From positions 1,874,001 to 1,938,000 of the forward strand of contig JAUPFP010000004.1 of NCBI GenBank assembly GCA_036925085.1: DNA of 64,000 nucleotides, read 5' to 3'. Below, in pieces: positions 576-61,022 of the stretch. Every line of letters begins with the position of its first letter. Position 1 is the first letter of the stretch. Position numbers and translations under genes: made by a program. Origin of the DNA: Brachycybe producta. Lineage: Eukaryota; Arthropoda; Diplopoda; Playtdesmida; Andrognathidae. The notes beneath the pieces are model-generated. The model had not been told where the DNA came from and made no database searches. It saw only the letters and a program-made list of their open reading frames with translations.

Positions 576-2180
576 TAAGCAGCTATCATCGCACTTATTA
601 TTTCCTGCAATATCATAACTTTTTTGCACAAAAATTAGCTTTTTCTTATTTTTCTTGTAAAGGCCTTGCTAGAACTCAATGAAAAGAACTCTGAAAAAAT
701 ATTTCAAAAACATAAATTCCACAAAATGGAACTCAGAAAATAATTCTCAGCCTATAGCATAATGAAAACTCTGAAAACAAAAGCAATTGTGTAAATTCCT
801 ATGCAGTGTTGGCTTTCCCTAGATTCCCTATTGTATTTCAGAGCTTTCTTTTTCGGAGTACTCTGATTTTCCACTGTGAAACAGCAGTTTTCCAAAGAAA
901 AAACTTCCAAAAACTATCATTTCGGAGTGTTTCATTGAGCTCTAGCAAGGCTTTAAGACATGGTGCAAAATTTAAAGCAACAATTGTCTTTTTTTTATCT
1001 TGAAGTGAAACTTGCAGATTTATAATGCCAGTGTAAACGTTGCTTTTTTAAGCTGGTTTTCAACTTTTCATGTTGTATGTCAGTGTTATATTTCTTGTGT
1101 GTGTCACATGTGTATGTTTCATCTTTTTTTTGTTCCTATCTTCTCTCTTTTGTTGGCAGTATATGATATTGATTTTTTTTCTTCTTCTGTTCATTGTCAC
1201 CTTGTTTGTTTGTGACATTTTGTGTGTATTATTCTTCAATGTATATTATGTGTGTGTGTCACTTGTGTGTGTGTGTGTGCGTCACAAAAGTATATGTTTG
1301 TCCTGTGTATTTTCATACTGACTTTCATCTAAAAAAATGACCATCAGATAAATTAATTTCTAACTAAAATACACTTGAACTTTGCAACGAACTCGAACTC
1401 AACAGGAAAAACGTCATAACTTCACAAACTACAAACATATCCAGTTATAACATCATTTCCAATAATATTAAAAGAGAACCTCGCGTGCCATTTTTAATCC
1501 GCAATCCATATACAGACACACACACCTCATTTGAGGCAGACAGACAGACCGACCCTCACTCCCCATCCCTTTAACGTTTGCAGCCCAAAAAAACCCCTTC
1601 ATTCTCCCTAACCCTTAACCTCCAATTTCAATGGTATACAAGTTACAGAACCCTACAAAAGTTAATAATCAATTTAATCATATGCAACAGATGATACACA
1701 GACTTAATAGTTAATCAATGAAATAAAACAACAGCTAACAACTTCACGAATATTGTTTTTAGATGAACACCATCAATATAATTTGTTCTATTTGAGATTC
1801 AAGAGAGTGAATTGTGAAATATTGGAGAGGGGTTTTTTTTTGGGGGGGGGGGGGGGGGGATTTTGTTGGTGCAAAAATGCGAGGGGTTATCGAGTAGTCT
1901 TAGGGAGAAGGGGGGTTGTATGTGGAGTAAGGGGGAGAGAAGAGGGGTCATACTGATGATTAAGGGAAAAAGAATTATGCTTTTGGGCAATCGTTAGAGG
2001 CTATAGTTAACATTTAACTGAAATTCAACTGTCTTTGAATTCTCGAAGAACTCTTAGCGTCTAAACAGTTTCTTTGATAGCAAAAATAATTAATTCTTTT
2101 TTGTCTTATACCTTGTACACACACGAGTTAAATGAATTCAAATTAAATGTGTTTAGGTGAATTATACGGAATCCAGTTAA
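576..2180. other. AT-rich stretch without a recognisable gene
   Basis: No exon with coding character could be supported. The stretch holds TG-rich sequence around 1,090-1,290 and an 18-base G run at 1,842-1,859 preceded by T's. Short open frames here come from these simple repeats. Confidence 0.6.
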
Positions 2181-2189
2181 GGACATGAA

Positions 2190-2402
2190 CACCAACTAAA
2201 AATTCACTTTATTATTAATATTTTAAATTGGAAATACTAAATCAATATTTTGTCAATAGTTTATAGATTCTATTTAAGTATTTACTCAATATTTTCAGAT
2301 TATTAACTGAATAAATTGAATTCGAAATATTGTTTGGTTGCCGTTCACAGAGGGCTCTGTAGAACACGTTTATTATTTATAAATGCATTTAAATTATCAG
2401 GT
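2190..2402. repeat. Dispersed repeat, copy 1 (partner at 11.5 kb)
   Basis: This stretch matches about 11,505-11,665 in the same orientation with small indels. Shared segments include ATTAATATTTTAAATTG, AATATTTTGTCAATAGTTTA, TTCACAGaGGGCTC and AAATGCATTTAAATTATCAG. It is AT-rich with no open frame. The element class is unknown. Confidence 0.7.
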
Positions 2403-2911: not shown

Positions 2912-3654
2912 CTGTATGTATAAACAGCAGTTTTTGGTGTTTATCATCATCATCCCCTTATACCATAATTCTCCCCTCCTCCTTTTAAACCTTGTTTTTT
3001 CTACCATTTTGTGTGTGTTCTATTTTAAACCACCCCCTGTCTCACTTTGAAGTTTTCATTCAGTTTGTCCCTCTCTTCATTGACTATAAGAGGGGGGTAG
3101 GGGGTGGGGGAAATGATCATCATGCGCAGGTGACGTCATATTTACAATACAAAACCATGTGTTTTCATATTATATACCATTCATTTTTGGCGCCGTCTGT
3201 TCGTTACTAGTAGAGGAGGAGGAGGTCATTCATAATATGAATAGGTGTTCCCGTTGACCTTTTCTTTGATCACTCCCCCTCCCGTCTACTCTTTTTCAAT
3301 ATATCCTCAGTATTCCCCTTTTAAGTTTTATAACTCCATCATTTTACTCTTTTCTGGATGAAATTAATAGGATTTTCATAAACCTTCTTCCATCTTTTTA
3401 AAAAAATTAACCTCCCCCTCTTTTTATAATCAGTTATTTTTTCAGTCAAAAATAAATCTTGATTATCTCTTGATTCAGATAAATGAAAACAATTAGGAAA
3501 TGTGTTTATGTTATGAGTAATATTACATAATTGACTAGAGTTACTAGTCAATGTGCAGACAAAAATACCAATTTCGGAAGTCAAGAAAATCAATTAATGT
3601 TTAATCGTTTATTTTGAGTTTTTTTAAATTATTTAAATCGTTATACGAATGAAT

Positions 3655-4010
3655 GATTTTCAAACATTGGTTATTCTAGTTTCAAAAGGAAACACTAACG
3701 AGAAATTGAATGTGAAGAAAAAAAAACTAGAACGGTAACTGAATCACTTTAATAATTATTTTCATGTTGAAATCTTTCAAAATAAACTTTTTTTTATGGA
3801 GAAAAAAATTTAAAAAATATCGGCTGCTTGAAGTTCGGTTATTTTAAAAATACCCATAAAAAGTTTATTTTAAAAGATAGCAAAACATTTACTGTAAAAT
3901 AGTCTTCAGTGATTTGAGCTACTTTCTAGTTTCTAAAACGCTTTTGATTTAGTTTTGCGCTTCTGAAAGCAGAGTTTAGAGTGGCGTTTATAATTTAAAA
4001 CACTCAATAA
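3655..4010. repeat. Foldback element FB1, full copy
   Basis: The left arm carries GAAATTGAA, AACTAGAACGGTAACTGAATCACTT, then TTTTCATGTTGAAATC and CAAAATAAAC. The right arm carries the complement in reverse order (AAGTTTATTTTAAAAGATA, GATTTGAGCTACTTTCTAG, TTTCTAAAACGC). The outer right end reads GTGGCGTTTATAATTTAAAA, one of two end types seen in this family. Confidence 0.75.
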
Positions 4011-4297
4011 ATAGTAGATTTTGAAAGATGTCATCATGCTTTGCACCATTATTTAAAATAAATTTCTAAATTTTGGCAAAAAGAGATGCTTTAGAAAAAG
4101 CCACCACTGTCCAGACCAAGGCAATGATAAAAAAATATGGTTTTGATCCGGCAGTGTGTAGAATGCCTGAGAACAATGACATTATGTAGATTGAATAGGT
4201 TTTTTTTTTTAGACATTCTGCTTAATTCCGAATTAGTTGATTTTATTATTTGTGTAGAATAACTGAAATTCCACATTGACGGATGTGATTCTTGTCA

Positions 4298-11269: not shown

Positions 11270-11885
11270 TTTTATCTGAAATTCCACTTACAGAAGAAAT
11301 AAAGAGAAACTTGAAAGTTGTTTAGAAACTAGAAGGGTAGCAAAAACAGTTAATACCTTAACTAGAACTAACAAGTTAGTTAAATGTACTTAAATATTAA
11401 ACAGTTTCTACAGAGGCCTGTTAATATTTAAATATATTAAATTTGTATTTCATTATATTGGGTGAGTTTAGCAAAATATTGGTTTAATATTTCACGAACC
11501 AAATTAAAATTGACTTCATTATTAATATTTTAAATTGAAATACTAAATCAATATTTTGTCAATAGTTTATATATTATATATTTAAGTATTAACTCAATAT
11601 TTGTTTGTTTGCCCTTCACAGGGCTCCGTAGAATATTTATTTAAATGCATTTAAATTATCAGGTGTGTACTAGGTATTAGGGTATTTTTCATGTTGATAT
11701 AATTTAAAATAAGCTTTTCTGTGAGTTTATATTTTTAAATATATCAACTTAAAATACTATTAAAGTGGTTCAGCCACCAATTCTAGATTTTTTAAACACA
11801 ATTTAAATTTCTCCAAGGTGGTGTTACTCCTGAAACACAGAGTAAATCAGAGTTCGAAAATCAGCTGTTCATAAAATATTAAAAA
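11270..11885. repeat. FB1 copy split by another repeat
   Basis: The outer left part of FB1 (GAAGAAATAAAGAGAAACTTG, TTTAGAAACTAGAAGGGTAGC) is at 11,295-11,345. The inner palindrome resumes at about 11,690 (TTTTTCATGTTGATATAATTT) and closes at about 11,755. The outer right end (AGAGTTCGAAAATCAGCTG then TTCATAAAATATT) ends near 11,880. Between the halves sits the dispersed repeat also found at 2,190-2,402. The simplest reading is insertion of that repeat into an FB1 copy. Confidence 0.6.
11505..11665. repeat. Dispersed repeat, copy 2 (partner at 2.2 kb)
   Basis: Same-orientation match to 2,190-2,402, with a shorter internal segment between ACTCAATATT and TTCACAGGGCTC. It lies within the interrupted FB1 copy. 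Confidence 0.7.
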
Positions 11886-13946: not shown

Positions 13947-16900
13947 TTAGTGGTGTTTATGTTGATCCCAAGCAATTTCGTATTTTCTTTTCAAGATGGC
14001 CTCATTGTTTGCTTGAATTCTGCGTATTTTTTCATCCAATTCATTTTCAAATGTTGGTCGTCCTGGACAAAATGCATGGAATGATCGTTTAACAAATGGT
14101 AAACAAAAAAAAAAAGATACAACATAAAATGCAATAACAAATAATGAGTGAAATTCATAAATGCTGTAAATAAAAATAACTTGGAAGTCCAAGCCCAAAT
14201 TCAACTGAACTTCAATTTTTAAACCCTCTGAACAGAGTTCCAGCATAGGAACTCCTCCCTGTTCAAGAGTGCTCAATAAAACAAGGGGTTTTTCTATGCT
14301 GGAAATCCGAAGAGAGAATTCAAGTGATGTTTCTTTTTAAAATTTGGACATGAGACTCTATTTAAATTTGTGCACTGCATGTAAATGCAAGATAATATCA
14401 GTCAAAGGTTTAGTTGCAAAATTTGCAATCAATTGCTCTCGGTTTCTCCACAAACAAAAACTAGCAATTTTTTCCCTAGAAAGTAAATTGTTAGGTAATC
14501 GGTACTTTTGTTCTCAACTTTGTGCTTTTGTGAACATTAATAATAATTGGTTCGTTTTTAACAAAAAATTACAGTTGATAAAGATTTTTATCATGCCAAA
14601 ATCTTAATAGTTGAGATCATATTTCTTTACGGGTAATTAATTTTTTTAAACACATGTTTTGTAATTTCGAACAAAAATTCTTATTTGTTAGTCATTTAAC
14701 AAAATGACAAAATTAACGTGAACTATTTCTTTTTATCTCGGTTTTCTCCAAATATCTGCAGTTATTAATTTATTATGTACACCAAATTAAACTTTGTTTT
14801 TTAAAATCTAGTTTTCCAGTACTTACTAGAGAAACCTTGTTTATAACATGGTCGTAATTAATAAGGCAAATAGAATTCTTTTTACAGTCAAAAAGACTCA
14901 GAGGCTAGCATTCCCTTAGTTTCCCTACAACTCGCCTAGGCTTGCAGGTTAACTCTGGCCTCTACAAAAATTACCTGCCATTAAAACGTTAACCACAGTT
15001 AATTTTCTAGTCGAAACAAATGTGATTAATGGTTACATTTCTGACCCATTGTGGTTAACCACATTATTGAATAGTTAAATACATTACTTCCTGTGTTCAA
15101 ACAACATGGCAGATACGGGAGAGCACTCAAGTTTTGTCTTGAATAATGAATGAAAATTTCATAAAATGCACAAATGTTCAAAAGGAACTGAAACAAACTC
15201 ATTTAACCACAGGCAAGTGTCTTTAAAATAAAAACACACAAAAGTGCCACTTCGAGTTTGTCTGCAGTTGACTTGGGTATGTAACTGCAGTTAATTTTTG
15301 TAGTGAAAAAGCAGTTATTACTAATTTACTAGGTCTCTTTGATGGCAAAAAAAGTATAATTATTTTTGCCTTATAATTAAGTGCTAGAAAAAATTAAATT
15401 CATATAAAATCATCTCTAAAAATTTTAAATATCGATATAAAAACAAAATCTTATCAAGTAAAAAAATATCTTGAAATGTACATTATTGTGTTTCCTATTG
15501 GAAATACTCACCGTTCACTTAAAATATGTACAAGGAAAAAAGTATCACAATTATTAAGTTATATTTACACAAAAAAGGAACCAATGAAACAATAAATTAT
15601 GATAATTACTTCGGGGAACTGATTAATCATCATATTTCAGGTACAATAATTTGGAAGAAATCTTAAATAAATGCTGAAGTGTGATATGGATTTATAATCA
15701 GAAGTTTAGAGAAAAAGAGACGAATCTGATTAATTCTTAGGGCGTTCACAGACAAGTGAAGTTTTGTAGTTGAGATGAACTGCAAAAACCATTTGGCTAA
15801 AATCGACCAAATAAGCCACAATCACTTCTTGTAATTCATTCAAATAGACAAGAACCGCTTCCCCAACTCCAGTTGTCTCTTTTGGCAACACACTCGGCAA
15901 CCTTTTGCAGTCCATCTCGATCACTAAAAGTAGTTCGTCTGCAAACGTCCTTAAGAATTTGCTCTTCGTGACTCAATACGATAAAACAAATCTGAGGAGG
16001 CTGAAAACTATCTTAAAACCTCTTTCACGATTCAATCAAAATGAATCAACCTTGTTGGTTCAATTGTAGTTGAAAAGGAAGAATCTTGATGAAGATTGTG
16101 ATGATGATGACTTAGAAAACCAATTCGTAAGGAAGATGCTGAAACAGAACAGATTAGCGCAAACGAACAAACACGAAAAACAAACGTAAACTTCAGATTT
16201 AAAATAAATTACGAAAGAGATTCAATAATTAACAAGAGTTAAACTCGTTGAAAATTTTTATATTTTTTTTTTGAAAAAAAAAAACCGCCCCCCACCCCCC
16301 ATGGAAGGAAAAAAATGCTGCAAAGGCTTCAGATGGACGGATTAATAATAGCAAAGAGTTAAGAAACAAAAAGCATGAATATCATCTCTTTTTACCTTTT
16401 AGAACACGGCTTTTACCCGAAGACAATTCGTGCTTCATGTCGGCCGATGAAGGAGCAGCAAAGGCATCTCTTCGAAGTTTCACCTTTCGCTTCGGTTCTT
16501 GGCTTCGACCGGATGTTGTTGAGCTCGGCGATGCTGACCTACGTTCCGTTAACGTATGCGGCGATATGGAACGACGACGCGACGAAGGAGATGGACCTCG
16601 TAAGTTAGAAACTCCCAAGGAATTTGGAGGAATTCCTAGACGCTGACGAACGGGAATCCTCTGAATGGGTGAGGAGGAATCACGACTTCTTTCGACTGTA
16701 TCTGTATCAAGTAAAAGTTTATTTTAAACTCTCATTTTAAGCTTTATTGAAATGGAAAGCTAGTTAGAAACTAGAACTGTAGCTGAATCATTTAATAATA
16801 TCGTCACGCTGAGCTTTCAAAATAAAGCTGTTTATAGACAAAAAATTATAAAATATCGTCAGCTTAAAGTTGATTCATTTTCAAACTGACATAAAACAGC

Positions 16901-19297
16901 ATATTTTCAAAGATATAAACATGAAAATACTCTTAAAGCTAATTTTAAGCTACTCTTAAGTTTGGGCTACCCTTCTAGTTTCTAAAACACTTTCAAATTT
17001 CTAAATTTTGCTTCTGACTTTTCCACTTTAAAAACAACATTAAGAGTGAAATCTTCTCACCATCCGTTATGATTATGTCGATATGCGGACTATTAAGACG
17101 TTCTTTAACTCTATCGTTAATGACTATCCTCCGAGATTTCGACATTCGATCGATCTCATTCGGACTGTCCGATTTCCTACGGATGGCTTTTGAGGACTTT
17201 GTGCGTCTTTCTCGTATTGGCAATGGACTACGACTTCTAGATTTAACATCCGATGAAGCTGGACTCACTTTCACGACACTAAGCACAGATCTGACAACTG
17301 TTCGATCGCGTTCAGTCTCCCGTGGATCATCAACATCACCGTTATCGTCATCATCATCATCATCTTTGTTGCTGCAATTCCTATCCTCTACTTGACGATC
17401 ATCTTTCTCAAAACCTTCCTTCCCTTCTTTATTACGTTGTCGTAACCGTAGTTTTTCTCGAAGATCGAGCGGTTTAGAAGACGGAGAAGAATTACGAGAA
17501 CGTAACACCTTCGAGTCACCATAACTCGAACGGGACGAATCTTTTGGCGAAGATTCGATCGGATCTCTTTCTTTAGAGCCCGATCTACGGTCACGGCGGC
17601 GATAACGACTTGTAACAACAACAGAAGGCATTCTGTCATCACCGACTACAAAAAACTTAGACCGACGTTCACCATTTGCCACATCAAAGTCATCTACGTT
17701 ACGAGATTTATCACGAAGTCTCTCTTTACCGTTTTTAGTTCTACGACTTTCGAGTCGACGGTTCAAACTTTCGTCACTAGTAACTTTACGTTTCCGTCTT
17801 TCTTTTCTTACGTCGTTATTATCTCTACGATGCCGTCGATCTCCGTTACGACTAGCATCTTCTAAACTACGTTCCGATCGACTTCTACCGGCGTTATTTT
17901 CTTTTATACTTCGTAATTCTGTACGAGTTTGTCTTTCGTAATGTCTCAAAGACTTTTCGCTACGACGTGGTTTGTCTAGAGATTCTGTACCACAATAATC
18001 ATCTTTAATGTTAAGTTCAACGGAAGAAGAATCTAACTGACTAGTCTGAGAATTTAAAGAATCGTCTTCTTTTATCTCTACATTGGAATTACTACATAAT
18101 AAAGTAGATTCAGAATCTGGAAGTTCGTCATCAGGATGCAATAAAAGAACACTTTCATTATCATCATCATCATCATCTGTGTCTTGAGTTTCTCTTTCTT
18201 CATCTCCGTTCTCTGTTTCTTCGTCATTTGTGTCCGAAAGCTGTCGATCATCTTGATCTTCATCAGAAAACTCTTCGGAATCGTCGGAGCTTTCGGAATC
18301 GGATTCGAAACGACTGAACTTTCCGCTACCTTAAAAATGAAATGTATTGCTATAAATAAAAATTGTCCTTTCGATAATAATTGTATCAGCAGTTTTTACT
18401 TTTTCCTCTTTGAGGAATCGTTGAATTCAAACTTTCGTTTTTCGATCTGTTGTTTATTGAGAACGAACTGATCGAAGTCGTATCTTCACTTAAAACTGGT
18501 TGAATGACGATTAGATTTGGCCTTGCGTTATAACTCTGTCAAAAGAAATTGAAACGATCTATGATAAGAAATAGAAAAAAAACGATATTTTCTATTGTAG
18601 ATTACAGGTCTATTTGGAAAATCTGCTCTAAATCCACGATTCGGTTGGTTATTTGTCTGTAAAATCGAATTCGCTTGCTAAGAAACGAAAAAAAAAAAAC
18701 ACTCGACTGAGACTTTCAGAAACCCATTTAACGTCTAAAAATGCTTCAATTACGGTTTTTTGGTTGCTTTCTGCGAATCTCTTCGATCTGAGTGCAGCTT
18801 TTCGAAGTTCTTCCAGTTCTGCATCGTTTTTTACGCTTCCCTCTTCTTCAGAGTCCTTATTTCCACGCTTCAGACAAAAGAAAACATTTTAAAAACAACT
18901 ACAATTTAACTGTCAATAAATGAATGACGTAAAAACACCTGTCTTACAGGTTTAAGAGAAGCAAGAACAGCCGATCGTAAAGCATCCAAGTCAGTATCCT
19001 TAAAAATGATAAAGAAAATCATTAAAAAGAGGTTCGTTGACTTGATTTTGAGTTTTTGACCCAATTTCTGATCAAAATCTTACATTGGAGGACAAAAACT
19101 CGTTACGTCTTAACGTTAGTTTCATCAGTTTTTAAAGTAAAAAGACTTCTTTAATAGGTAATTAATGTGAAAGAACGTTTAAATTTAATGTAAACCAAAG
19201 AAAAACTCAGTTTACTAATCAAACACAGTGAAAAAAAACAATCAAAATCAATGATTTTCCGTTAGAAATCAACACTTACCTCCACGTCAGACGCCAT
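13947..19297 (-). CDS. Acidic arginine/serine-rich protein, eight-exon gene (identity unknown)
   Basis: Exons, minus strand: 19,280-19,297; 18,948-18,998; 18,754-18,867; 18,606-18,656; 18,400-18,535; 17,061-18,329; 16,396-16,701; 13,947-14,062. All introns are GT-AG and phases agree, giving 686 aa. The start lies in AAAGATGGCG. Residues 1-61 hold two related motifs, LDALRSAVLASLK and LEELRKAALRSKR. Residues ~130-185 are very acidic (SDSESSDDSEEFSDEDQDD, then a D run). Residues ~200-545 are rich in RS, RR and KR, with a second D run from TCATCA repeats. The C-terminal part has IPVRQRLG and SPSSRRRSISP. The last exon encodes a charged helix (ELDEKIRRIQANNEAILKRK) resembling the N-terminal helix of CCDC9-type proteins. 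If the final splice is not used, translation stops at 16,382 (652 aa). RS-rich composition suggests a nuclear RNA-processing role; this is inferred. The gene is divergent from dynactin subunit 4 and shares its promoter. The final exon is the least certain part. Confidence 0.85.
14063..16395 (-). other. Last intron of the RS-rich gene
   Basis: The donor is AAAAG|GTAAAAAG at 16,395 and the acceptor TTTTGTCCAG is at 14,063, after a T-rich tract. The split codon (G+GA, glycine) keeps frame. The 2.3-kb intron carries an FB2 foldback copy (15,725-15,955) and is otherwise AT-rich. An extra internal exon around 14,180-14,255 cannot be excluded. Confidence 0.6.
15725..15955. repeat. Foldback element FB2 copy inside the last intron
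   Basis: The left arm is AGGGCGTTCACAGACAAGTG...GATGAACTGCAAAAACCA. The right arm is its imperfect complement, TTTTGCAGTCCATCTCGATC then ACTAAAAGTAGTTCGTCTGC and AAACGTCCTT. The motif GAACTACTTTTAGTG..CGA recurs in the FB2 copy at 39.8 kb. Confidence 0.65.
16755..17020. repeat. FB1 foldback copy inside intron 6 of the RS-rich gene
   Basis: The left arm has AGTTAGAAACTAGAACTG, GTAGCTGAATCATTTAATA and CTTTCAAAATAAAGC. The right arm has AAAGATATAAACATGAAAAT, GGGCTACCCTTCTAGTTTC and TAAAACACTTTCAAATTTC. It fills most of the intron between donor 17,060 and acceptor 16,702, so the pre-mRNA would contain a long hairpin. Confidence 0.75.
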
Positions 19298-23855: not shown

Positions 23856-23924
23856 AGCACTGTTAGAAAATGGAAGGAATTCAGAGTCGCGCGCCAAAGG
23901 TACAAGTTTGCAAGTTTATTGAAC

Positions 23925-24060
23925 AGGTGATTTTCGAACTTATATTTTGTGCAATTTTCTGAAGAACAACAAATAAGAAGAAATTGAAAGTGTGAAAGAA
24001 ACTAGAAAAGTAGGTGAATCACTTAATAGTATTTTTTTTTATTTATGTTAAATATCACTA
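23925..24060. repeat. FB1 half copy
   Basis: The outer left end (GAACAGGTGATTTTCGAACT) and left arm (AAGAAATTGAAAGTGTG, GAAACTAGAAAAGTAGGTGA, ATCACTTAATAGTATTTT) are present. The right arm is missing. Confidence 0.6.
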
Positions 24061-24640: not shown

Positions 24641-25189
24641 CTGCTTAGATCTTTTGCATTGTTTAAACTAGATGGCGCTGACTATATCGTAGTTATTATT
24701 TGAATTGAAATTATGTGTAATTTACTAATTTCTGTGATTTTTCTGGAGGAATTCGGGTCTAAAGCACTTTTGATTCACAGGAAGCAGTTAATAAAGGTGT
24801 TTATAAACACAATTTTTAATGTAGAAAACACGCAAATATCATAAGACACTGATAAAAATCTTTTTAAATATATATTTTTTTAAAAAAAAATCAAGATAGA
24901 AAGAAAAAAAGGGCGTTCAGCATGAGTGAAATTAACAAAAATCCCTTTTTAAGTGTGGAAATAACCGGAAACTTAGTAATTAGTTGCACACATTGTATTT
25001 TCTACTATAAACACGCGATTTCCAATTTTTAAATTGGGTCTATGAGGCCCATTGATGGGCCATGGTGACAATGTGTTAATTGCCTTATTTTTTTTTTAGT
25101 ATTTCACTTTCTACTTTACAATTAATACTAATACTTATGATGTATGAACAACTGATTTTAGAATTATTTGATTATTTTGTATTTCAGAT

Positions 25190-25525
25190 GAGCAAAATTA
25201 AGAGGAACTTTAAAAGTTCTTAGAAACTGGATGGGTAACTCAATTTAATTGTATTTTCATGTTGATATTCTTCAAAATAATTTAATAAACGTTTTATATA
25301 AACAAAAATAAAAAAATACCATTTGATTAAAGTTGGGTCATTTTCAAACGCGCATAAAAAGTTTATTTTGAAAGATATCAACATGAAAATAGCCTTAAGT
25401 AATTGAGCTACTCTTCTAGTTGAAAAGCACGTAAGTTTTTCTTTATTTTGCACTTGAAAGACAGAATAATCAGAGTTCGAGAGGCGTTTATACTTTAAAA
25501 TCACCTTAAACACACTCAAACTCAC
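25190..25525. repeat. FB1 foldback copy (cluster member 1)
   Basis: The left arm has TTAGAAACTGGATGGGTAAC and GTATTTTCATGTTGATATTC. The right arm has GTTTATTTTGAAAGATATC, AACATGAAAATAGCCTTAAG and TGAGCTACTCTTCTAG. The outer end is AGTTCGAGAGGCGTTTATAC then TTTAAAATCACCTTA. Confidence 0.8.
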
Positions 25526-25539
25526 TTAAGATGGTCTAT

Positions 25540-25885
25540 GAACAGGTGATTTTCGAACTCTTGATTATCAGAAGAACAATACTAAGAAGAAATTGAAAGT
25601 GTTAAAAACTAGAAGGGTCGATCAATCATGTAAGGTTATTTACATATTCATATCTTTTAAAATAAACTTTTTTTAGAGACAAAATATTGTCTGTTAAGCG
25701 TTGTCTACGTAAAAGTTGGATCATTTTCAAATTCACATAGAAAACTTATTTTGGAAGATATCAACATAAAAATACCCTTTTGGGCTATCCGTCTAGTTTC
25801 TAAAACACAAGTTTATTTTGTACCTGAAAGACTGAATAATCAAGAGTTTGAGTGGCATTTACACTTTAAAACCACCTTATGAGTC
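25540..25885. repeat. FB1 foldback copy (cluster member 2)
   Basis: It starts with GAACAGGTGATTTTCGAACT and AAGAAGAAATTGAAAGTG, then AAAACTAGAAGGGTCG. The right arm is TTATTTTGGAAGATATCAAC, then CTATCCGTCTAGTTTCTAAA. It ends with GTTTGAGTGGCATTTACAC and TTTAAAACCACCTTA. The two outer ends are of different subtypes. Confidence 0.8.
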
Positions 25886-26124
25886 AACAGAAATCAAGAA
25901 GACAAAATACACGCACCTTTGAGAAAATTCTCAAAAACATACAGCAGACAGAGAAAAGTTAGAAAATTACTAAATGACAACATGTCCCTTGGACATGTTT
26001 CAAATAAATAATTTAAATGTATATTTGAAGCAAATTGTTTTAATAATTAAGAATAATGAAAGGTGCCTAGAATGATACCTTTTTAAAGTGTGTCGTTTTA
26101 AGTTTGAATCTGTTTAAACGCATT

Positions 26125-26460
26125 GCGAACTCTGGTTATTCTGCTTTTCAATAGCCAAAAGCCAAAATCAAGAGAAATTTTGAAAGTGTTTTAGAAACTA
26201 GAAGAGTAGCTCAATCACTTAAGGGTAATTTCATGTCGAAAGCTTAAAATAAGGTTTAAAAAGACAACTTTAAGAAGGCGATATTTTTTTTTACAAGTGT
26301 TTGTCAATAAACAGTTTATTTTGAAAGATATCAAATATTATAAAGTGATTTAGTTACCCCTTTTAATTTCTTAACAAATTTTCAATTTTGCTTTGCTGTC
26401 GCTCGTGAAATACAGAATAATCTGAATTCGAAAACCAGCTTTTCATAAAACATCTTATAG
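26125..26460. repeat. FB1 foldback copy (cluster member 3)
   Basis: The left side has GCGAACTCTGGTTATTCTGC, TTTTAGAAACTAGAAGAG and TAGCTCAATCACTTAAGGGT. The right side has GTTTATTTTGAAAGATATC, AAAGTGATTTAGTTACC and CTGAATTCGAAAACCAGC, then TTTTCATAAAACATCTT. Confidence 0.75.
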
Positions 26461-26769
26461 ATTGTTTTATTTTATGTGGCGCCACAAAGTGGTCCATGTA
26501 AAGTAAGCCTTAGGGTTGTTTTAAGAGCTACTTAATTGGGCGTTTTCAACCGGGGTCTCAGAGTTTTTAGTATTTTTTTTTAAATCCATTTCTCTTATAA
26601 GTCTATAATTTTTCTCTAATGCACACATTGCGTGTATAAAAAAAAAAGAAAACGCTTATTTTTTTTTTACAAGTGATTTAAAAACTAAAACGGAAATGTT
26701 CATCTACATTAGATTCTTCCCGGAAATCTTGAATGACGGTTTAGAATTAGTTCTAGGACAGTGGGGTTT

Positions 26770-27205
26770 TAAATTTTAAACGCCCCTTTCGAACTCTGAT
26801 TATTCTACCTTTCTGCTGGAAAATGAAGGGAAGCTAGAAAGTAAGTGTTTTAGAAACTAGAAGGGTGCTCAACCACCGAAGTGTATTTTCATGTTGATAT
26901 CTTTCAAAATAAGCTTTTTATGTGAATCTGAAAATTATCTAACCATCATCTAATCATCTAACGAATTATATTTTTTTTACATTTTTCTTGTCTATAAAAA
27001 GTTTATTTTAAAAGATATCAACATGGAAATAACCATGTTTGAGCTAGCTACTCTTCTAGTTTATAAAACACTTTCTAGTTTTTCTTAATTTTGCTCTTGA
27101 AACGTAAATGTCGATCCAACTCGGAGACATTTCTGTGTTCCAGGTGCAAAATTGAGAGAAATTTGAATGTGTTTTAGAAACTAGAAAGTTAAACTTAAAG
27201 GTATT
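26770..27205. repeat. FB1 foldback copy (cluster member 4) plus an adjoining half copy
   Basis: The full copy runs from AAACGCCCCTTTCGAACTC to about 27,110, with GTGTATTTTCATGTTGATAT and CTTTCAAAATAAGC in the left arm and GTTTATTTTAAAAGATATC, AACATGGAAATAACC in the right. A further left arm (TTTTAGAAACTAGAAAG) follows at about 27,170, suggesting a partial tandem arrangement. Confidence 0.75.
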
Positions 27206-27295
27206 TTTGGTAATGCTTTCCCTGAAAAACGTTCGCTTGAAAAACATATTTTTTTTTTTCAAAATCGCGGGTGGAGGAATGGGGGGAAGTAACCT

Positions 27296-28018: not shown

Positions 28019-28584
28019 TTCATTATGTACTTCAAAGAATAATTAATCTGCTTGAGAATTTGTATGATAAATTATTTTTATTCACTTGATGATGATGAGG
28101 ATGGGTCGTTTTTGTACCTCAACAGTCATTTTTAGGTGTATAAAGTGATTGTTAAAAAAAAAGACAATACCAAGAACCCTGTGTTTGGAAACTAGAAAAG
28201 CACTTGAATCTGCTTTAAGTATTATGTTGATGATATCTTTAAAAATAAACATTTTATGGTAGTTTGAAAAATAATCAAATATTTTATAATTAGTGATAAG
28301 TTATTTTCAATTGTTGTGAACATTAAGAGGGCGAACTAGTAAACCCGTCGTGCAACTTGCACGAAAGGAAAAGGGACTAACTTAAGCAAAGTGTATACTT
28401 TACTATATGCGAGGATTTTTCTCTCAATTTTCTCTTTCTATTTCTTACTATACATATGTAGAAGATAAGATTTTGAAGCAATTAAGTGTACATACATGTC
28501 GTCTAACACAAGAATAGGCACAGTGTTTAGGTGCCACAATGGGTCACCTATGTGACGTGAAGAAAACCTCAGTTTGTGCTTCTT

Positions 28585-32800: not shown

Positions 32801-34980
32801 ATAATAACCACAGGTTGTTATTTATGGCGTCCATCTTTTGTTTTTCTAACGGTTATTTTGCCATCAAAAAAAAAGTCAGGTGGAATTTTTATGTCAATTG
32901 ATGATAATAATTATATCTGAGAGAAATCAAGACAGGTGATTTTGGTTTAAAAAAAGGATGAGAACAATTTAAATTTACGATTTAAATAAGTGGTTTTTAG
33001 TCTGTGGGCCACAAGTATGTTTTGTACTGTGTTGTATTGGTTGGTAATGTTGTTACTATTGACATTTAGACTGGAGACTTTCAGAAAGCCCATGGGTTTG
33101 ATGATCATAATAGGCTTTAATTGTGGTCTTATCGGCTTGGTGGGCTAGACTCATTAAGTTATTATGGGCTGGGCTTCAATTTTGGCCATAGGTTCTATGA
33201 CTAGTTTCAGCATAATAACAAATTAGTTCTTAAAAGTGACACTAGATGTCTGACCGTCAAAACATCTTGTTTTTAGTTTTTTTATTAGTTTATGAAGAAA
33301 TTGGAGGTGAATTAAATAGTAGAAAATTAATTACTGGAATATATATGTAAAAATATTTTTATATTAAGATTTTTGAAACACTTTTTAATGTATGTTGAAT
33401 GTGTATTCGAAACTAGAAGGGTAAAAGAGATACTTTTAAGTGTTTTCAAGATGATAAAAAGTCCAAATTATTGCACTAACTTCAATTGATTTTAAATGTT
33501 ATTTCTTGTAAGTTTAAAACTTAAACAAAAACTTTAAAGTTGTACTCATGAAAATGTTCTCACCTGTTCCTTTACTATTCTAGTTTTTAACACATTTTCA
33601 ATTTACTTTTAAAGTTATTTAGAAAAGAAAGCTTGAACCATAGAAGTTATAAGATTGTGGAGTTTTTTTTAAACGTTATCTTTTTGTAGTTTTCAAACTT
33701 AGATAAAATGTTTATTTAAAAAAAAACAATATATAACAATGATAATATTTGTCCTGTGCATTTACGTTTCTAGTTTCTAACGCATTTTAAAATTATTTAT
33801 AAAAAAATGAAACCATGATTAAAATGGCGTTCACACACACACCAAATGAGGAATTTTTAACATGAAGATGAGCGGAGATTTAAAAATCACATAAAGTTAG
33901 GACTTTAAATGTACTTCATCCCTTTAAATTTTAAAAGCCACCTGAAATTTTTATCAAAATCCGTTTAAAAAAAACCAGATGCTTTTGTTTATAACGGCTC
34001 TTTTTATATTGTAAAATAGGCATTTTACGTTGTCAAATAATAAAAGCCAAGTAAAGGGCAGCTGTAATTGTATTATGAAGATGACACTTAACTATGACAT
34101 ATCTTTAACATCTATGAATTCAAATTTATATATTTTTTAAAGGTACGTTTTTTTTTAATAAAATTTGAGTATTTAATTTACTAATAATGATGATGAGTGA
34201 GAAAAACAGAGGGACATAATGAGGTGTTAAAAAAATCTCATTGGAAAAATCTGTTTTGCATGCAAATTCACTCACAGGAAATCAATAAAAAAAAAATTTT
34301 CAATTGTGAGGTAAAGTGAGGGAGAGAGATGGAGGGAGGGGGTGGACAATGGCCAACAATCAAAAAAACCATTTCCGTTGTAAAGGATGGCCGAGTGAGA
34401 GAGACAAGAAGAACAATAACAACAATACATAAAATACTGTAACCATGATTGTTTTTAATGACTCCACCTAAAAATGACTGTCACACAATGTGACGAATTC
34501 AGTAGTAACAAGGACTTAAATGTTAAGCGAAAAAAAATAAGACCAAGGTGAACTAAATATATAATAAAAAAAACATTTCTTAATATGAGAAAACTTATTT
34601 ACATTTTTTTAAAAAAAACTCATTAGTTAATATTAAGTGGGTCGAACGAGAAATAATGTTGGACTGAAATTGAACAATTCAGGTTAAATTTCTAGTTGTA
34701 TGAAATGTACGGCAACTTTTAGAAGCAAAAATTCAAATTGTTAGAAACTAGAATAGCAGTAAGTGAATTTTCTAATTTTAAGCATTTTTTATGATCATAT
34801 TTTTATAAATTAACTTTTTTTTATTATTCTTAAATTATTGTTTCATTAGTAGTAATATTACTTTGGATATTTGTCATAATAAAAAGCTTAGTTTTAAAGG
34901 CAAAATCATTATCAGTTAATATAATTTAGTTTTAAATTTCTATCAAACTTTGAATTTCTGCTTTGTGTTGCTTCTAATTA
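29850..34980. other. AT-rich intergenic sequence with scattered repeats
   Basis: No exon is supported. Items seen: a (GA)n run near 30,640-30,658, ATC/GAT trinucleotide tracts near 30,920 and 31,060-31,142, a fragment related to the 29.4-kb MITE (33,070-33,195), a decayed FB1 copy (33,380-33,600) and an FB1 half copy (34,735-34,830). Confidence 0.6.
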
Positions 34981-39079: not shown

Positions 39080-39399
39080 AAATATCTTAAAATGTTAACA
39101 ACCCACTCATAAGTTTATAGAACTATCTCTTAATAAGAGAAGAACTTATAATATTTTATTCATTTTAAATTAAAAAAAAATTGCTAATTAAGTTTTTGAC
39201 GTAAAGTGCTTTAGTAATTATTGGGCTAATTGGATGCTGTTTCTTAATGCAGTTTTTTTAAACATATTGAGCAAATATGTTTTTATATATCAGCAACATT
39301 ATGCAAAGCAACCTAAAAAAACCGAATAAATACGGATTAACATTGTGCAATTTTATTAGTTTGGGAGTTTTTTTTTTACACATTTTAATTGAAAATATG

Positions 39400-39850
39400 A
39401 TATTTTATGAACAGCTGATTCTTCAACGCTCGTCGTGCATTCTGCATTTCAGAAGCAACCCAAACGAGAAGTTGAAAGTGTATTAGAAACTAGAATGGTA
39501 GCTGAATCACTTAATAGTATTTTCTTCTTGATATCTTTCAAAATAAACTTGTTATAGTGACTATAGTCAAAATTAAAAAAATTTCTCTGCAAGGCTTCTT
39601 CTGACTTAAAGATGGGGTCATTTTCAAACTGCCGTTTGTCGCCAAAAACTGACCACTCGAGTCGACTTTTTTGCAATTCACTCAACAACACTAAGACCAC
39701 TTTCTCCAACTGTTGCAGTCGACTCGAGTGGTCAGCTTTGGCGACAAGTCAGCCAGCCAGCCAAGTCATCAAGCCGACTACATTTTACAGTCAAATTCGA
39801 CCACCAAAAGTAGTTCTTGTGAAATGGGTATTATTTAGGTTACGTTGTTT
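39400..39850. repeat. FB1 half copy joined to an FB2 foldback copy
   Basis: FB1 starts at TTTTATGAACAGCTGATTC, continues with GAAACTAGAATGGTAGCTGA and TTGATATCTTTCAAAATAAA, and reaches GGGTCATTTTCAAACTG. There it meets an FB2 element whose arms GTCGCCAAAAACTGACCACT + CGAGTCGACT (39,638-39,667) and AGTCGACTCGAGTGGTCAGC + TTTGGCGAC (39,717-39,745) are near-perfect complements. The right FB1 arm is absent, consistent with insertion plus loss. Confidence 0.65.
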
Positions 39851-46242: not shown

Positions 46243-46745
46243 TAGAGACCTACAATAAAGCTCATGGGTCCGTTGGTTGCAAAGGCAGTGGTCACAATTT
46301 TTTCCATAAAGCTCGTGGACCTTATGAGTCTGGTGGGCTTTGTGAACTTCATCGGTTTTTGTGCTTTGTAGGCTTCATGTGCCTGCTGAACTTTTGAAAA
46401 AAGCTTTTTGGGCATGGTGGGCTTTTACCCAAGCATAGGCTTTATGAGCCTGTTTGGCGTCATGAGCTTTGTGAGCCTTATGCGCTTGATTGGCTGGGTT
46501 CATTATAACGTTTTGTGGGCTGGGCCTCAGTATTCTAATATTTTTGCGCATCAAGTTCTGCGCCACTGAGCTTTGCGCCAGAAAAAAAAAACTGGCGCCC
46601 CCTTTTGCGCGCCCTGATTTGTGCGTTTTAAGCGTTGCGCCGGAGTCAGATGCCTTTCTCGCATTCCTCTGGTTACGGCTGTGTTTGTTAGAAACTAGAA
46701 GTGTAAAGAAATCAAGTAAAAGTATTCTTAGTATTTTTTTCAAAA
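46243..46745. repeat. Mosaic of MITE-related, GCGCC-rich and FB1 fragments
   Basis: TAGAGACCTACA at 46,243-46,254 and the GGGCTT/GAGCCT-rich stretch to about 46,520 match the 29.4-kb MITE, without a visible right end. From 46,545, TTGCGC..GCGCC blocks with ACTGGCGCCCCCTT match 57,880-58,075 and, weakly, 38,700-38,830. The stretch ends in an FB1 left arm (TTAGAAACTAGAAGTG). The minus-strand open frame across it is repeat-derived. Confidence 0.55.
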
Positions 46746-49700
46746 TGCCTACTAATACTTAAATGATTATTTTAACGCTTTGAAAGTTGATAAAAAACCT
46801 GAAATTTGGATTATATTTCAGACAGTCAGGAAACGTTTTGAAAAATATCATTATGCATATCAGCATAAAATTATAATTTTCTGGTTGTTACATCTGGATT
46901 TTCGATCATCTTGTGATGATACATGTATATATTATGTAATAGTAAATAAATCTTATGCCACACAGAAGCTATGTTTTGTTTTAAATGTATAATTTAAGTA
47001 TATAGCGCACTTTTTAAAGGGTGATCATCACCTGTGGAAATTTAATTTTAATTTGTCTGTAACATGCATGCTTGGCTTCTAGTGTGTGTGTGTGTGTGTG
47101 TGTTTTTCTATGTACTCTTGTTTCTTTTCGCATGACATTCCAGAGTTACCATTTGCAGAGTTAGTTGTTGTAGACTTTTATAAAAAAAAAGTTTATAACA
47201 ATTGTTGCCCACCTTGATCATCTCAGCAGTAGGCCTTGTGTTAGTACATATGTAAGCTCGATTTGCCGCTGAAGCTTCAGGCCATTTTGGTTCAATTCGC
47301 TTAAATTTATATATATTTTTTTTGTTAAGCTTATTTGTTCTCATTTTTTGTTAGTCTTAATTCGCCCACCTCAGCGAATACATTAAGCAGAGAAAAAAAT
47401 ATTAGTTTTTGCGATAGAAAAAGTTGAAGTTGTAACAGTTTGCAATTACAAAGATTTTATTTAGTATTTAATATTATTAGTCAATTGAAGAATCAAACTT
47501 TTCTGAAAATAAAAATTGAAAAATATGAAAAATGTTTTTAGAAATTATGCAAAACATGCAAGAAAAGCGTTTGTTGTATGCAAATAAAAATGCATCTTTT
47601 TCCTGACCAAAAAGTGTTTTCATGCTACTTTTTGCAAATTATCAAAGATTGTGTACAGAAGTTGGAGTAAAATGAGTTGAACCCTCATTATGCATTTCCT
47701 GTATTTTATGCAAACGTTTGGCCTTATAACTAATTTGATGATAAAAAACCAATGTACTACAATTTGTACCTTACAGCAGTAGGTTGAATCTTCTAGTCCA
47801 TTTTGTGGTAAACTTTTATTATAGCATTTCACTCTTTAGTATTACGTCTACATTTATTGCCATCTAAAATAGAAATTAAATTCATGCATTTTATATCAAA
47901 AATTGATAAAAAAACCGAGTTTTTTCTACTTTTAAAAGAAAAGCAAATTACAAATTCTACTCTTTTTGGTAGGTCTTTTAAATCCATGTTGGCCACCATG
48001 CAAAAAAAAATAGTATTATTCAAATTGTATTCAAGTCTGAAAAGAAACATTTTACCCTCTAGGGTTAAAACACCAATTTAATTCGTATCATTTTTTTGTT
48101 GGTCAAATGGAACACTGCAGACCAATTATTTTATCTACAAAATGTACACAAAAAAAGTTGTAGTAAATGTCAAGAACTGTTGAAGAAATACTAGTATAGA
48201 GAATGAAACAAAGGGGTTCTTGTATAGAATACAATATCATTATACATTTTACAGTATATATAGGTAGACTTATAAAAAAAAGTAAAAGGACATTATATAA
48301 TAATGAAATTAGGTCTGAAATGCACAACTTTGGGATAACAAACCAAAAAAAAAAATTTTTCTTGTTTGTTAGTTAGAAGAGGTTTTTTTTCTTTTTCTTC
48401 TTCTCCTTGCTTGACTTTTTTCTTATCTGTTTAACACATCAACTAAAACAAATTCAAAATGTTTCTCCTTATTAGTCGAGTATTTGTTGATGTTTTTGTT
48501 GTCATTATTTTGACTCTAGTCTAATATATACTATTAATTTATTATTATTTGAAACTGAGCAAACAACAATGTATTTGAAAGAAAGTGGGGAGGAGGTGAA
48601 CCTATTTGTCGCGACAATTTGTTTTTGTTATCATTTTGAACAATTACCCTATGATGATATAAACTTATTGCTTATATTATAATCTATGCCTTTGTTATAG
48701 AATACACGATTTTCCGACTGTTGTTAATAAGTTTGAAGCAACATTTTCTATTTGAGATCACATATTTCATCCTTTATTGCTGTTTTTTCGGGATTCCATC
48801 TTGAAGCTTTTGTAGTGGCATTTTTTTTTAACAAACGTAAATTAACAAACTAGAAAGAAAAAAGTTGAGGAGGGAGGGTGGGAGGAAAGGTTTTTAAACT
48901 AAACAATTACTCAAGAAGGTGGTGGTTAAGTTTAAAAAGAAAGGCCAAATGAATGTTATTGGTTATCACTTGATAACTAATTTAATTAGTGATGGAGGTG
49001 ATATTCTTTTTTGTTTTGTTTTTAAGAATATATGAATTATTTATGATGTAAGGTTAATAATTATTAATCAATTTTTTAACACTAAAAAGATGAACTTGTT
49101 ACACATGTTAAACTTAGCGAGGGGACCGGAGAAGCCTTTAAATAAGAGGCGTAGGAGTACAGTAGTTTGAAAATGACTTCTATTGTGTTTGCAAATTACT
49201 TTACTGCATGCTTGCAGTAGGACATCATTTTATAGATATAAAAGGATGTTTGAGAATGGTGGCGCTCAATAAGCGCCAAATTGAACTAAAGCAAAACTGA
49301 ATAAAAGGCAAACATTTCGTTTGGAGGTTTGTTCAATTTTGCGCTTTTTGAGTCGCCTTGTACAGGAGCCAATTAGTTGTAACAGTAAAATGACATTATT
49401 CAAAATGGCATTTGTTCGAATTGACGCTTATCCATTTGGCACTTATTCAGTTTGGCGCATTTTCAATTTGGCTCTAGACCAGCACCAAAAAACTTTAGTT
49501 TCTATATGTGCAGCCCTTTGCCTTATATCGTGGCTTTTGGCACTGTGGCGCTTATGCACCGCAAATATACTGTATGTGGTAGTTTTAGTGAAACTTAATA
49601 GTGGTGATTTAGCGGTTATTTAGTTTGGCATTTGTTCACTTCGGTGCTGGATAAGCACCAAAGTTTGTGTGTAATATTTATTTCTATGGTTAAGCTGTCT
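46746..49700. other. AT-rich intergenic sequence, no gene seen
   Basis: A short (GT)n run is at about 47,082-47,103. TTTGGCGC..AAGCGCC-type words recur between 49,260 and 49,660. No exon or element with definable ends was recognised. Confidence 0.5.
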
Positions 49701-50744: not shown

Positions 50745-51405
50745 AAATTTCTTAGCAACTAGAATAGTAGAAAATTATGTTGAAAGTATTTTCATGACAA
50801 ATTATCTTTGTAAATTGTTTATGGTAATTTGGAAATATTTTTATATAAAACTGTGAAATTTGAACAGTTTCAAACAATGTGTAAAAAGTTTTTATTTTAA
50901 GATTCTAGTTTTCTAACATACATTATATAAGCCCTTACGTTGAAGTTTGAAATTTTTCTGAACCTGGTTATTCTGTATTCTAGAAGTAAATTTAATAGAA
51001 ACTTGAGAAAGTGTTTTATAAACTATAAGGGTAGCTAGATCAATCACTTAAGGCTATTTTCATGTTGATATTTTTTATAATGCTGCGCTTGAACTCCTGT
51101 CCCTCTGCCATAGGCCTTTATGGCTGCTTGCAGAGTAATTTTTCAAAATTCAAATTCAAAATAATGAAGTTTTTGTGGAGAAAAATAAAAATATATCTGC
51201 TAAAGCGTTGTCTGCTTAAAATTGAGTCATTTCGAAATTCACATAAAAAGTTTATTTTGAAAGACACCAACATGAAAATAATATTACATGTAAGTGATTC
51301 AGCTACCGTTCTAGTTTCTAACACACGTTCAGTTTCTTCTTAGTATTGCTCTACTGAAACGGCGAGTTCGAAAATCAGCTGTTCATAAAATATCTTAAAA
51401 GTTCA
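50745..51405. repeat. Two FB1 copies, one decayed and one good
   Basis: The decayed copy (50,745-50,935) keeps TTAGCAACTAGAATAGTAG. The second (50,955-51,400) has GTAGCTAGATCAATCACTTA and ATTTTCATGTTGATATTTTT on the left. On the right it has AGTTTATTTTGAAAGACACC, TTCTAGTTTCTAACACACG, TTCAGTTTCTTCTTAG and GAGTTCGAAAATCAGCTGTT, then CATAAAATATC. The loop holds about 90 bp of unrelated sequence. Confidence 0.7.
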
Positions 51406-52505: not shown

Positions 52506-54831
52506 CTCAGGAAAAATAGTTTTTGTAATCGTTGCTTAAGTCTTTACATTATTTTGAAAAAAAATTTCTGGAGGTAATACGGTCTCTTTAAAGAATAAGA
52601 TATATAATTCTTATTGGTAAAATCCTAAAGTGATACCATAGTAAAAGGCAACAAGCCAAACTGTGGGAACGCAGTTATTTACTAATTTATTCTAAAAATA
52701 TTGATATAAAGGAATGTTTTTTGCTGATATTTCGGTCTGGTATATAGGGCACACATTAAAACTGAAATTTCATGAAAAAATAAATAATGAAATTAATGAA
52801 AATACAATTAATTCATCATGGAATACATTAAGAAACTCACCAAAAATTGTAAATCGTAATTTAAGATGTGTATACACATCACAAAATTGAAGTTTTTAGT
52901 TTAGTATCGATTGGCTTTGTAAATGCAATTAAAATACATACTGTATATGTAGGTCTTAATGGGATTCAACTTACGCGGTTTTGCGACTTACATGGAAACC
53001 AGTAAATAAACCAGTAATTTAACAAATAATAAAATTATATAATAATAAAATGGATAATGGACAACAACAGTACAGGCAACTACATTTTTCAGCAAAAAGT
53101 AAAAGTGCAATTAAAAATGTACTGCATTTTACTATTACTTTACAAACTTTAGGGTTTTACCAAAAACAATTATGATATATCTTACATTCTTCAATTAAGG
53201 TTCTAATAAGTGGACGAGCAATATGCAAATTAAGAAGAAGAATTTTTATATTTTTTTTAGGAATTCAAACGGCATTTTTTATTTTATCTTTTGTTTTTTC
53301 ATGACTTCAATAATAATTTTTTTTTGAAAAAAATTCTTTTTAACGGTTGTTGTTTTTTTTGTTAGTGTTTGTTGTTACATTTTTTTGTATGTCCAATCGT
53401 CAATGTTCACCATGAACTGGTCAGTCAGTCACTTTTTATAGACGACGACTGTCTTTTTCATTCATTATTAATGTTTCCGACTCCAATTTTTAATGAAGGA
53501 AACACATGAAAATTGTAAGTCATTTCTGTTGTAAAAATTTGTTCACAAGTGATTTTTCTTAGTCATTGAACAAAAACACGCACAAACAAAACATTGAAAT
53601 CTTGATGGAGTTGACTTTTTTAAGTTGACGAGATTATGTATACACTGATAATATAACCAAATGGTTAAAACAAATTTGTCACATGCCAAAAATAATATAT
53701 TAATATTCATATTTTATGGATATATTATTTTGTACTCATAAAAATACGAATAATAATGCTTATGTTCAATAGTAAATTTATTGATCCACTTCAGACAATT
53801 TTGAAATCCTTTTAGAAACAACTTTGAAAAATTCATAATTTGGTAAAAGCTAATGCAGGGGAATATGTTATAAATATTTTCATGATGATACCTTTAGAAA
53901 TAACAATTTAATAATAATAATAGTAAATAATAATTTATGGTAATGTTTATTTCAGTAAGCAACATAAATGTTAACTTACAATGAAACCAATGGTCAATAA
54001 TAAAACAAGACTAAATTTAGAAAACAAACAAAAGAAAAAGATATTTCAGATAGCCAAATTATTAGTTGAAAATTCTCAAATTCAAAAATAAACTAAGATT
54101 ATTCTAGTTTCTAACAAATTTTCATTCAATTGTTGAAGTTTCCTATGAAAAATAAATTTTTATGCACTTTATGCACTTAAAATGGCTGTGAAGCCATTTT
54201 GAATATTAATATTTTTTATTGATGTAAGTCGATAAGACGACATGAACACAATAGTGATAATTACTTATGTCACAAAACAAGTATACAAAAAAAAAATTAT
54301 ACGCCTTTGGGCTAACTAGAAAAAAGATTTATTAGTAGAAAAAAAAATGGGAAAGTTATTTTTGAATTTTTAAGATGGAAAAAAAAAACAGCACTCAAGA
54401 CATTATTCAATGTTTAATTGGTAAACACTACAAATAATGGCTGACCATCGACAGTCACTAATTATACAGACATATGCCTATTGTTAGCTCATGTTAAAGA
54501 AAACTTGTTCATCATAATTTATTATATTCACAGTTCATAATTAAAATTAGCCATTAACGAACGCGGCATTTTATGACGTCAGCGACACAAGGCATTTCAT
54601 ATACATTATAGAAAACAACGTTAATTATATTGAACGTTGATTAATTGATGAAATTCTCGTTGTTTTCTAAAAATTTCTTCTCGTTTTCGCTAATATATAA
54701 CTTCTTGTTATTATGTACAAAAGAAGTCTTTTTTTTTAAACTGTCAGTCTATATGTATTTAAACTCGTAAATTATGTTAGTGTCAAAGTGACTAGCCAAT
54801 GTGTAAAATCACCAAGGCCCCCTGGTTTGTC

Positions 54832-57639: not shown

Positions 57640-58080
57640 GTCTTTAATAAGGTCCTTGGTAACTTTTATTAAAAGTTTTAATGTGTATTGCATGTGATAA
57701 TATCTTTTAAAATAAACTTTTTATTACTGTTTAGTATAAAAAGACCAAGATGTACCACAATTAATGTTTGATGGCTATAGCTGGCTAACATGAAATGAGG
57801 AAATGTGATGGTTTATTTTAAAAGATATCGTCACTTTCATAAAAATACCTGTAACTGCAGAGCTTGTAACTAAGTCATTTTTGCGTTCGAGGCAAGAATA
57901 AAACTGGCGCCCCCTTAGTATTATCATTCTAGTTACTTTGCGCCACTAAACCTTGCGCCCGAGGCAAGAATAAAACTGGCGCTCCCTTAGTATTATTATT
58001 CTAGTTACTTTGCGCCATTTCAGCGCCACTAAGCTTTGCACCTAAGGCAGATGCCGCCTCGTCCTAGTTACAGCTCTGTA
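57640..58080. repeat. Decayed FB1 copy followed by a 72-bp duplicated GCGCC repeat
   Basis: AATATCTTTTAAAATAAACT and GTTTATTTTAAAAGATATCG form a residual FB1 palindrome. From 57,888 a 72-bp unit (CGAGGCAAGAATAAAACTGG... TTACTTTGCGCC) occurs twice in tandem, ending AGGCAGATGCCGCCTCG near 58,060. Related sequence is at 46,545-46,690 and 38,700-38,830. Confidence 0.65.
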
Positions 58081-60765: not shown

Positions 60766-61022
60766 CTTTAAGGTGGCTGAATAGATTTTTGTTTTGCTTT
60801 CGAAAATGACCATTGACATTTTATGGAAATATGTTTTAACATTATCACCAACTATTCTAGTTTCTAAACCACTTTGAATTTTTCTGTAATGTTTGTCTGG
60901 AAAATATAAATTTTCTCAAAACCACAAGTCAGGATGAAAAGACCTATAGAACATTAGCCACTGCAGTGGCGCCATTTGGGGAGACGAAAACAAAATAAAT
61001 ATCTATTCAGCTCCCTTAAAAG
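60766..61022. mobile_element. Element with CTTTAAGGTGGCTGAATAGAT-like inverted ends
   Basis: CTTTAAGGTGGCTGAATAG at 60,766-60,784 is mirrored by CTATTCAGCTCCCTTAAAAG at 61,003-61,022. The interior holds FB1-type right-arm sequence (ACTATTCTAGTTTCTAAACC) and the CACTGCAGTGGCGCCATT segment shared with 27,315. It may be a complete variant defining the true ends of an FB1 subfamily. Confidence 0.55.

Follow-up and report, generated by a model that had tools for sequence, protein, structure and literature searches.

A palindromic repeat family of Brachycybe producta, probably a TTAA-targeting Kolobok-like MITE, that retains one subterminal nine-base motif

The FB1 palindromic repeats of Brachycybe producta are, taken as a whole, probably best explained as a family of non-autonomous, TTAA-targeting, Kolobok-like MITEs with a subterminal motif site and with arrays built through TTAA. 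The name FB1 is only the label given in the initial annotation of the window, that is, the whole stretch of 64 kb analysed (G000:C4:1874001-1938000, from a genome of 295.3 Mb in 442 contigs), and implies no lineage. According to this explanation FB1 would be a DNA transposon of about 340-390 bp with two unequal ends (A and B), mobilized by cut-and-paste through a transposase encoded elsewhere in the genome, presumably of the Kolobok type.

The initial annotation placed four full copies and a half copy in a short cluster, and both the arm search and the reading of the hairpins confirmed four both-armed hairpins and one half copy at 25.13-27.21 kb of the window. Copy 1 (25132-25509, plus strand; 378 bp), located by arm search and folding, is complete from B end to A end, with the B arm at 25137-25280 and the A arm at 25329-25509, the last letters of which are TTAA; its B end is decayed. 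The hairpin shape that had been proposed is clear in this copy, whose folding gives a z value of -5.67, with none of 100 shuffles as good. Copy 2 (25526-25880, plus strand; 355 bp; arm search) is likewise complete from B end to A end, opening with TTAAGATGG (B end) and closing with CCACCTTAT (A end). The next two copies lie on the minus strand and were delimited by arm search and arm pairing. Copy 3 (26097-26459) has decayed ends, an A arm on the left (26112-26252) and a B arm on the right (26307-26457); copy 4 (26759-27102) presents the same arrangement, with the A arm at 26765-26943 and the B arm at 26994-27098, and its outer B end was not recognised. The half copy is a single A-type arm (27131-27207, plus strand; arm search). 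Since the copies occur in both orientations and no near-identical pair is found among them (best repeat identity 93%), the cluster looks like older insertions lying side by side rather than a recent tandem array.

Across the whole 64 kb, for which about 18 copies or remnants had been claimed, the arm search (E≤1e-3) found 29 arms at 17 places, the grouping into places being the analyst's own, versus no arm in 19 and one arm in the remaining one of 20 dinucleotide shuffles of the window. The same arms number 28 when a larger database shifts the E-values. Outside the cluster this search located four further copies, listed without strand, at 3654-4038 (B arm and A arm), 11297-11875 (left arm interrupted near arm position 118 by sequence akin to the TA-flanked element described below), 16764-17017 and 50960-51398 (A arm and B arm), together with a decayed hairpin of three arm remnants (33395-33717, also without strand). 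Single arms on the plus strand are of B type (23914-24035) or carry a B end (39396-39555). The remaining places are arm remnants at 28184-28270 and 46681-46746 and short ones at 53875-53903 and 57688-57724, all on the plus strand, and a short one at 60855-60893 on the minus strand. As already noted from the letters, no transposase was found in the window, where the search covered its 11 stop-to-stop ORFs of at least 120 aa, two of which were scanned against Pfam and gave no family, and the ORF listing has no frame of at least 120 aa inside the FB1 cluster.

The 18-base block GAAACTAGAAGGGTAGCT has 14,967 + 15,100 = 30,067 matches in the genome at up to two mismatches, and the reversed-pattern control has 4 + 3 = 7 at the same limit. 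In the window this block occurs eight times within two mismatches and never exactly; the blocks quoted in the initial annotation are consensus-like. A bait-free sample of 166.5 kb from 12 sources (the window, the starts of C1-C10 and the end of C1) contained 13 of these 18-mers (≤2 mismatches) and 45 arms, covering 2.7% of the sequence; 28 of the 45 arms come from the window itself and seven of the 12 sources have none. Extrapolation gives about 104,000 arms, or some 3.6% of the genome, a rough figure that assumes a constant ratio of arms to 18-mers. Among the matches listed, copies on C1 are dense at 0-5.5 Mb and 20-22 Mb and sparse in between. An arrangement in megabase blocks of one orientation was considered and rejected, as exact minus-strand 18-mers were found inside a 'plus' block, and more of them in L004 and L007. 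The proposal of a mobile family is upheld by the tens of thousands of matches and by two recurrent ends at TTAA in unrelated flanks.

These two ends, A (GGTGGTTTTAAAG; longer form TTAAGGTGGTTTTAAAGTGTAAACGCC) and B (GATGGTTTATGAACAGC; longer form TTAAGATGGTTTATGAACAGCTGATTTT), recur next to TTAA. Inward of either end comes an inverted arm of some 125 bp that is common to both, and a loop connects the two arms. The extrapolated length is 340-393 bp in 42 of 61 paired hairpins. With TTAA omitted from the query, the exact tetranucleotide was found at 17 of 31 ends; in the set enlarged with added loci it is present at 29 of 49 ends, and at least three of its four letters at 41 of 49. The background is 1.2% of positions, and the bases farther out are merely AT-rich. 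Two loci, L044 and L057, show TTAA on both ends. At 40 or more of the 49 ends, TTAA is followed by a purine pair (GG, GA, AG or AA). A target duplication of TTAA is thus suggested as likely by these sequences. No empty site was found for 10 candidate end pairs, some of them mispaired across two elements, and the joined flanks matched only their own loci; TTAA could therefore be terminal sequence instead of a duplication. FB1 has the features by which a MITE is recognised, being short, devoid of coding capacity, bounded by inverted terminal repeats and present in high copy number. A literature search by kind of element returned no report of this family.

Hairpins are also joined into arrays. 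L021:4346-5586 contains five hairpins with a terminal-type end at either side, and L020 and L022 hold arrays like it. At 18 of 30 joins between a right arm and the left arm directly next to it, TTAA lies at or near the junction, a count taken in AT-rich DNA and without a permuted control, so that some of these will be due to chance. Two end-to-end joins have one TTAA common to both partners (L027:8618-8621 and L061:895-898). In other cases an arm cut at position 65 passes into a terminal end via one TTAA (twice in L020, and in L022, L059 and L060), the same arm-65/terminal-end join being carried by L059 and L060. Within the arm, TTAA occurs at positions 115-118 and, in part of the copies, at 65-68; of 47 arms, 19 have G and 16 have T at position 66. 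Insertion into, or recombination at, an internal TTAA, followed by tandem duplication, would produce such hairpin arrays.

The assignment to a class is drawn from the ends, where FB1 presents the Kolobok features of TTAA and 5'-RR...YY-3' termini. Kolobok elements, in contrast to piggyBac, are described as duplicating TTAA and as having 5'-RR termini (PMC9587614, PMC6004289). A Kolobok-type enzyme would therefore fit better than piggyBac, and is the most likely transposase. That FB1 is instead a piggyBac-derived TTAA MITE moved by intact piggyBac copies of the same genome is unlikely. TTAA is indeed the piggyBac target, the genome has 93 piggyBac matches, the nine best of which show open frames of 559-624 codons with no internal stop, and coral CMITEs, with their conserved core and arrays, are described as piggyBac-type MITEs (PMC2872659, within the scope of that account). 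However, the FB1 ends read GGTGG / GATGG, without the terminal CCYT of piggyBac, and among the four piggyBac loci that were read, out of the 93 matches, not one carries FB1 ends or the motif; two of these four have CCC-type inverted ends and in the other two no inverted ends were found. No transposase with FB1-matching ends was seen in the window ORFs or at these four loci. Still less probable is that FB1 is a palindromic repeat of satellite type that owes its spread chiefly to recombination and tandem amplification and not to a transposase. The tandem hairpin arrays of L020, L021 and L022, with a period of about 200-650 bp, agree with such an origin, but many copies have the same two TTAA ends amid unrelated flanks, and among the matches listed FB1 occupies places along C1-C3, with near-consensus arms on many contigs.

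Arms belonging to one hairpin do not resemble each other more than they resemble arms from elsewhere. Left and right arms share on average 0.773 of their letters (44 of 64 hairpins were measurable), compared with 0.762 for arms across loci and 0.770 for other hairpins at the same locus, and the own partner arm ranks at percentile 0.517. The conservation of blocks had been attributed to young insertions or to a gene-conversion-like maintenance of the palindrome; the near identity of the within-hairpin and between-locus values speaks against both gene conversion and very young copies.

Persistence of short blocks in decayed copies was found for the first half of the first block originally quoted, AAACTAGAA, and not for its other half, which is not specially conserved. 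This 9-mer occupies arm positions 91-99, roughly 90 bp inside each end, in both arms. When each 9-base block was masked in turn and the bait-bearing arms were taken out, 79% of the 56 non-bait arms had AAACTAGAA intact; eleven other 9-mer blocks were intact in 3-44%, the next best being CTGTCTTTC and TATCTTTCA (44%). Not only the motif but also block 100-108 is depressed by the removal of bait arms, and that single comparison is biased. Within the motif the C and the G each show 95% retention, with the other C/G positions at 38-87% (bait arms included). Genome-wide, 1550 of 2870 exact anchors TTTTCATGTTGATATCTTTC have AAACTAGAA in place versus 675 of 2870 for the one control, the nearer 9-mer AATCACTTA (Fisher p ~1e-126, with related copies treated as independent). 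The effect is weaker in a small unselected set (the window and L009-L019), with the motif intact in 53% of 17 arms and four controls in 0-25%. In 311 kb, of which about 114 kb were bait-chosen, AAACTAGAA occurs 213 times, with 12 expected by composition, and 190 of the 213 lie in or near element hits (E≤10).

A motif kept amid such arm divergence needs a cause, either constraint in the source lineages or retention after insertion. Most likely, AAACTAGAA is a subterminal site needed for mobility, bound for instance by the transposase or by a host cofactor. That gene conversion within each palindrome keeps the arms alike is very improbable: non-consensus letters are common to both arms more often than expected (69 times, with 48.3 expected; for rare letters 22 times, with 8.9 expected), but the arm-to-arm identity and the rank of the partner given above show no excess, and retention of one 9-mer while its direct neighbours decay points to a site and not to homogenisation of whole arms. 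It is also doubtful that the motif is retained after insertion for a host protein, as an exapted chromatin or regulatory site, and not for the transposon. Arms diverge within a copy about as much as between copies, as for old independent decay, and the motif remains 0.93-0.98 identical in each of four flank-identity bins, a sample of 80 arms that includes bait-selected ones. Selection on all of the tens of thousands of copies is, however, hardly possible, and the same data are explained by constraint in several ancient source lineages together with recent copies. Constraint in several old source lineages, likeliest on a site used in transposition, would be the more cautious explanation, and retention after insertion the bolder one.

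Foldback elements (Drosophila FB, Galileo) have, as FB1 does, long inverted repeats that fold back and internal repeats; foldback is a shape and not a lineage. FB1 is a kind of element already known, with near precedents in coral CMITEs and Xenopus T2-MITEs. As far as they are described in PMC2872659, coral CMITEs resemble FB1 in being short and non-coding, in their TTAA flanks, in forming tandem arrays of whole elements and in a core better conserved than the ends, but they measure about 100 bp, end in CC[C/T]T and number about 1600 copies in A. millepora. FB1, by comparison, is 340-390 bp long with RR ends, a nearly full-length palindrome and far more copies, and what is conserved in it is a 9-mer found in each of the two arms. 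The Kolobok-type T2-MITE/Xmix of Xenopus (PMC6004289) shares the TTAA target and purine-rich ends (AGGRR there) and, with Xstir, a tandemly amplified internal segment in a long-lived family; in a comparison made by description and not by sequence, the amplified unit of FB1 differs in being a hairpin, some of whose joins lie at an internal TTAA. KolobokP, as outlined in PMC9587614, is Kolobok kin in which multimers were observed, and differs in having long terminal direct repeats and two genes, none of which was seen in the FB1 copies read. FB1 has ends resembling those of Kolobok, an almost complete palindrome and a very large number of copies. It is unusual in that its hairpins grow into arrays and that a single 9-base motif is kept amid decay.

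Several other repeats were observed in the loci read. An element of some 300 bp, flanked by TA and with ends TACCTTGTACAC / GTACTAGGTA (L027:8063-8364; window 2109-2402 and 11498-11677) is common there and has several times been inserted into FB1 arms, four of which are broken by it near positions 106-118. A single mobile composite of FB1 and this element was rejected; the TA-flanked element is common alone and its positions of insertion differ, which indicates separate nested insertions. In L059, similar flanks longer than TTAA (TGTATAATATACAGAGTGCTC / TGTATATTATACAGGGTGCTC, at 440-475 and 1195-1225) lie to either side of a double hairpin and are perhaps another repeat split by it. Another short palindrome, some 205 bp long and starting near GGCAATTAGAAATCGGGA (L015:5204-5407; more in L005, L025, L027, L028 and L037), was not matched anywhere in the window (E≤1e-8); the L015 palindrome, which adjoins a B-end fragment, was rejected as a longer FB1 relative, being a different element. 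The same locus (C6:1-10000) contains, from its reading frames, repeated exon pieces that we take to be cytochrome-P450-like, with palindromic elements in between. Among the matches listed, those to piggyBac are concentrated on C1 at 5.5-18.4 Mb and are strand-uniform by block (5.5-9.3 Mb minus, 9.85-14.1 Mb plus, 18.0-18.4 Mb minus), which may be genuine, owing to heterochromatin or to clustering with retention in one direction, or may come from the search itself. Repeats of (CCTAA)n close to where C1 and C3 begin correspond to a TTAGG-type telomere, which points to an arthropod host. Ten TGA codons stand in frame in the mitochondrial COX1. An almost full-length copy of this gene, with one TAA besides ten TGA, lies at G000:C1:12697416-12698753 and COX1 pieces on C17, and these copies are probably nuclear mitochondrial insertions. 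In L029 (contig C442), read by eye, a minus-strand ND1 seems to adjoin COX1, which for an arthropod would be a rearranged gene order.

The FB1 family occupies an estimated 3% or so of this 295-Mb genome, and it offers a natural case of a palindromic MITE that may become satellite-like arrays by means of its own target site. It is conceivable, albeit doubtful, that AAACTAGAA, which by lying in both arms of each hairpin amounts to some tens of thousands of copies genome-wide, is a working protein-binding site retained after insertion; the hairpin arrays would in that case be grown as multi-site platforms for the transposase or for host chromatin. If the 9-mer is no recognition site, FB1 would be an ordinary though abundant repeat family; if it is one, a transposase-binding element would have been picked out by genome comparison alone.
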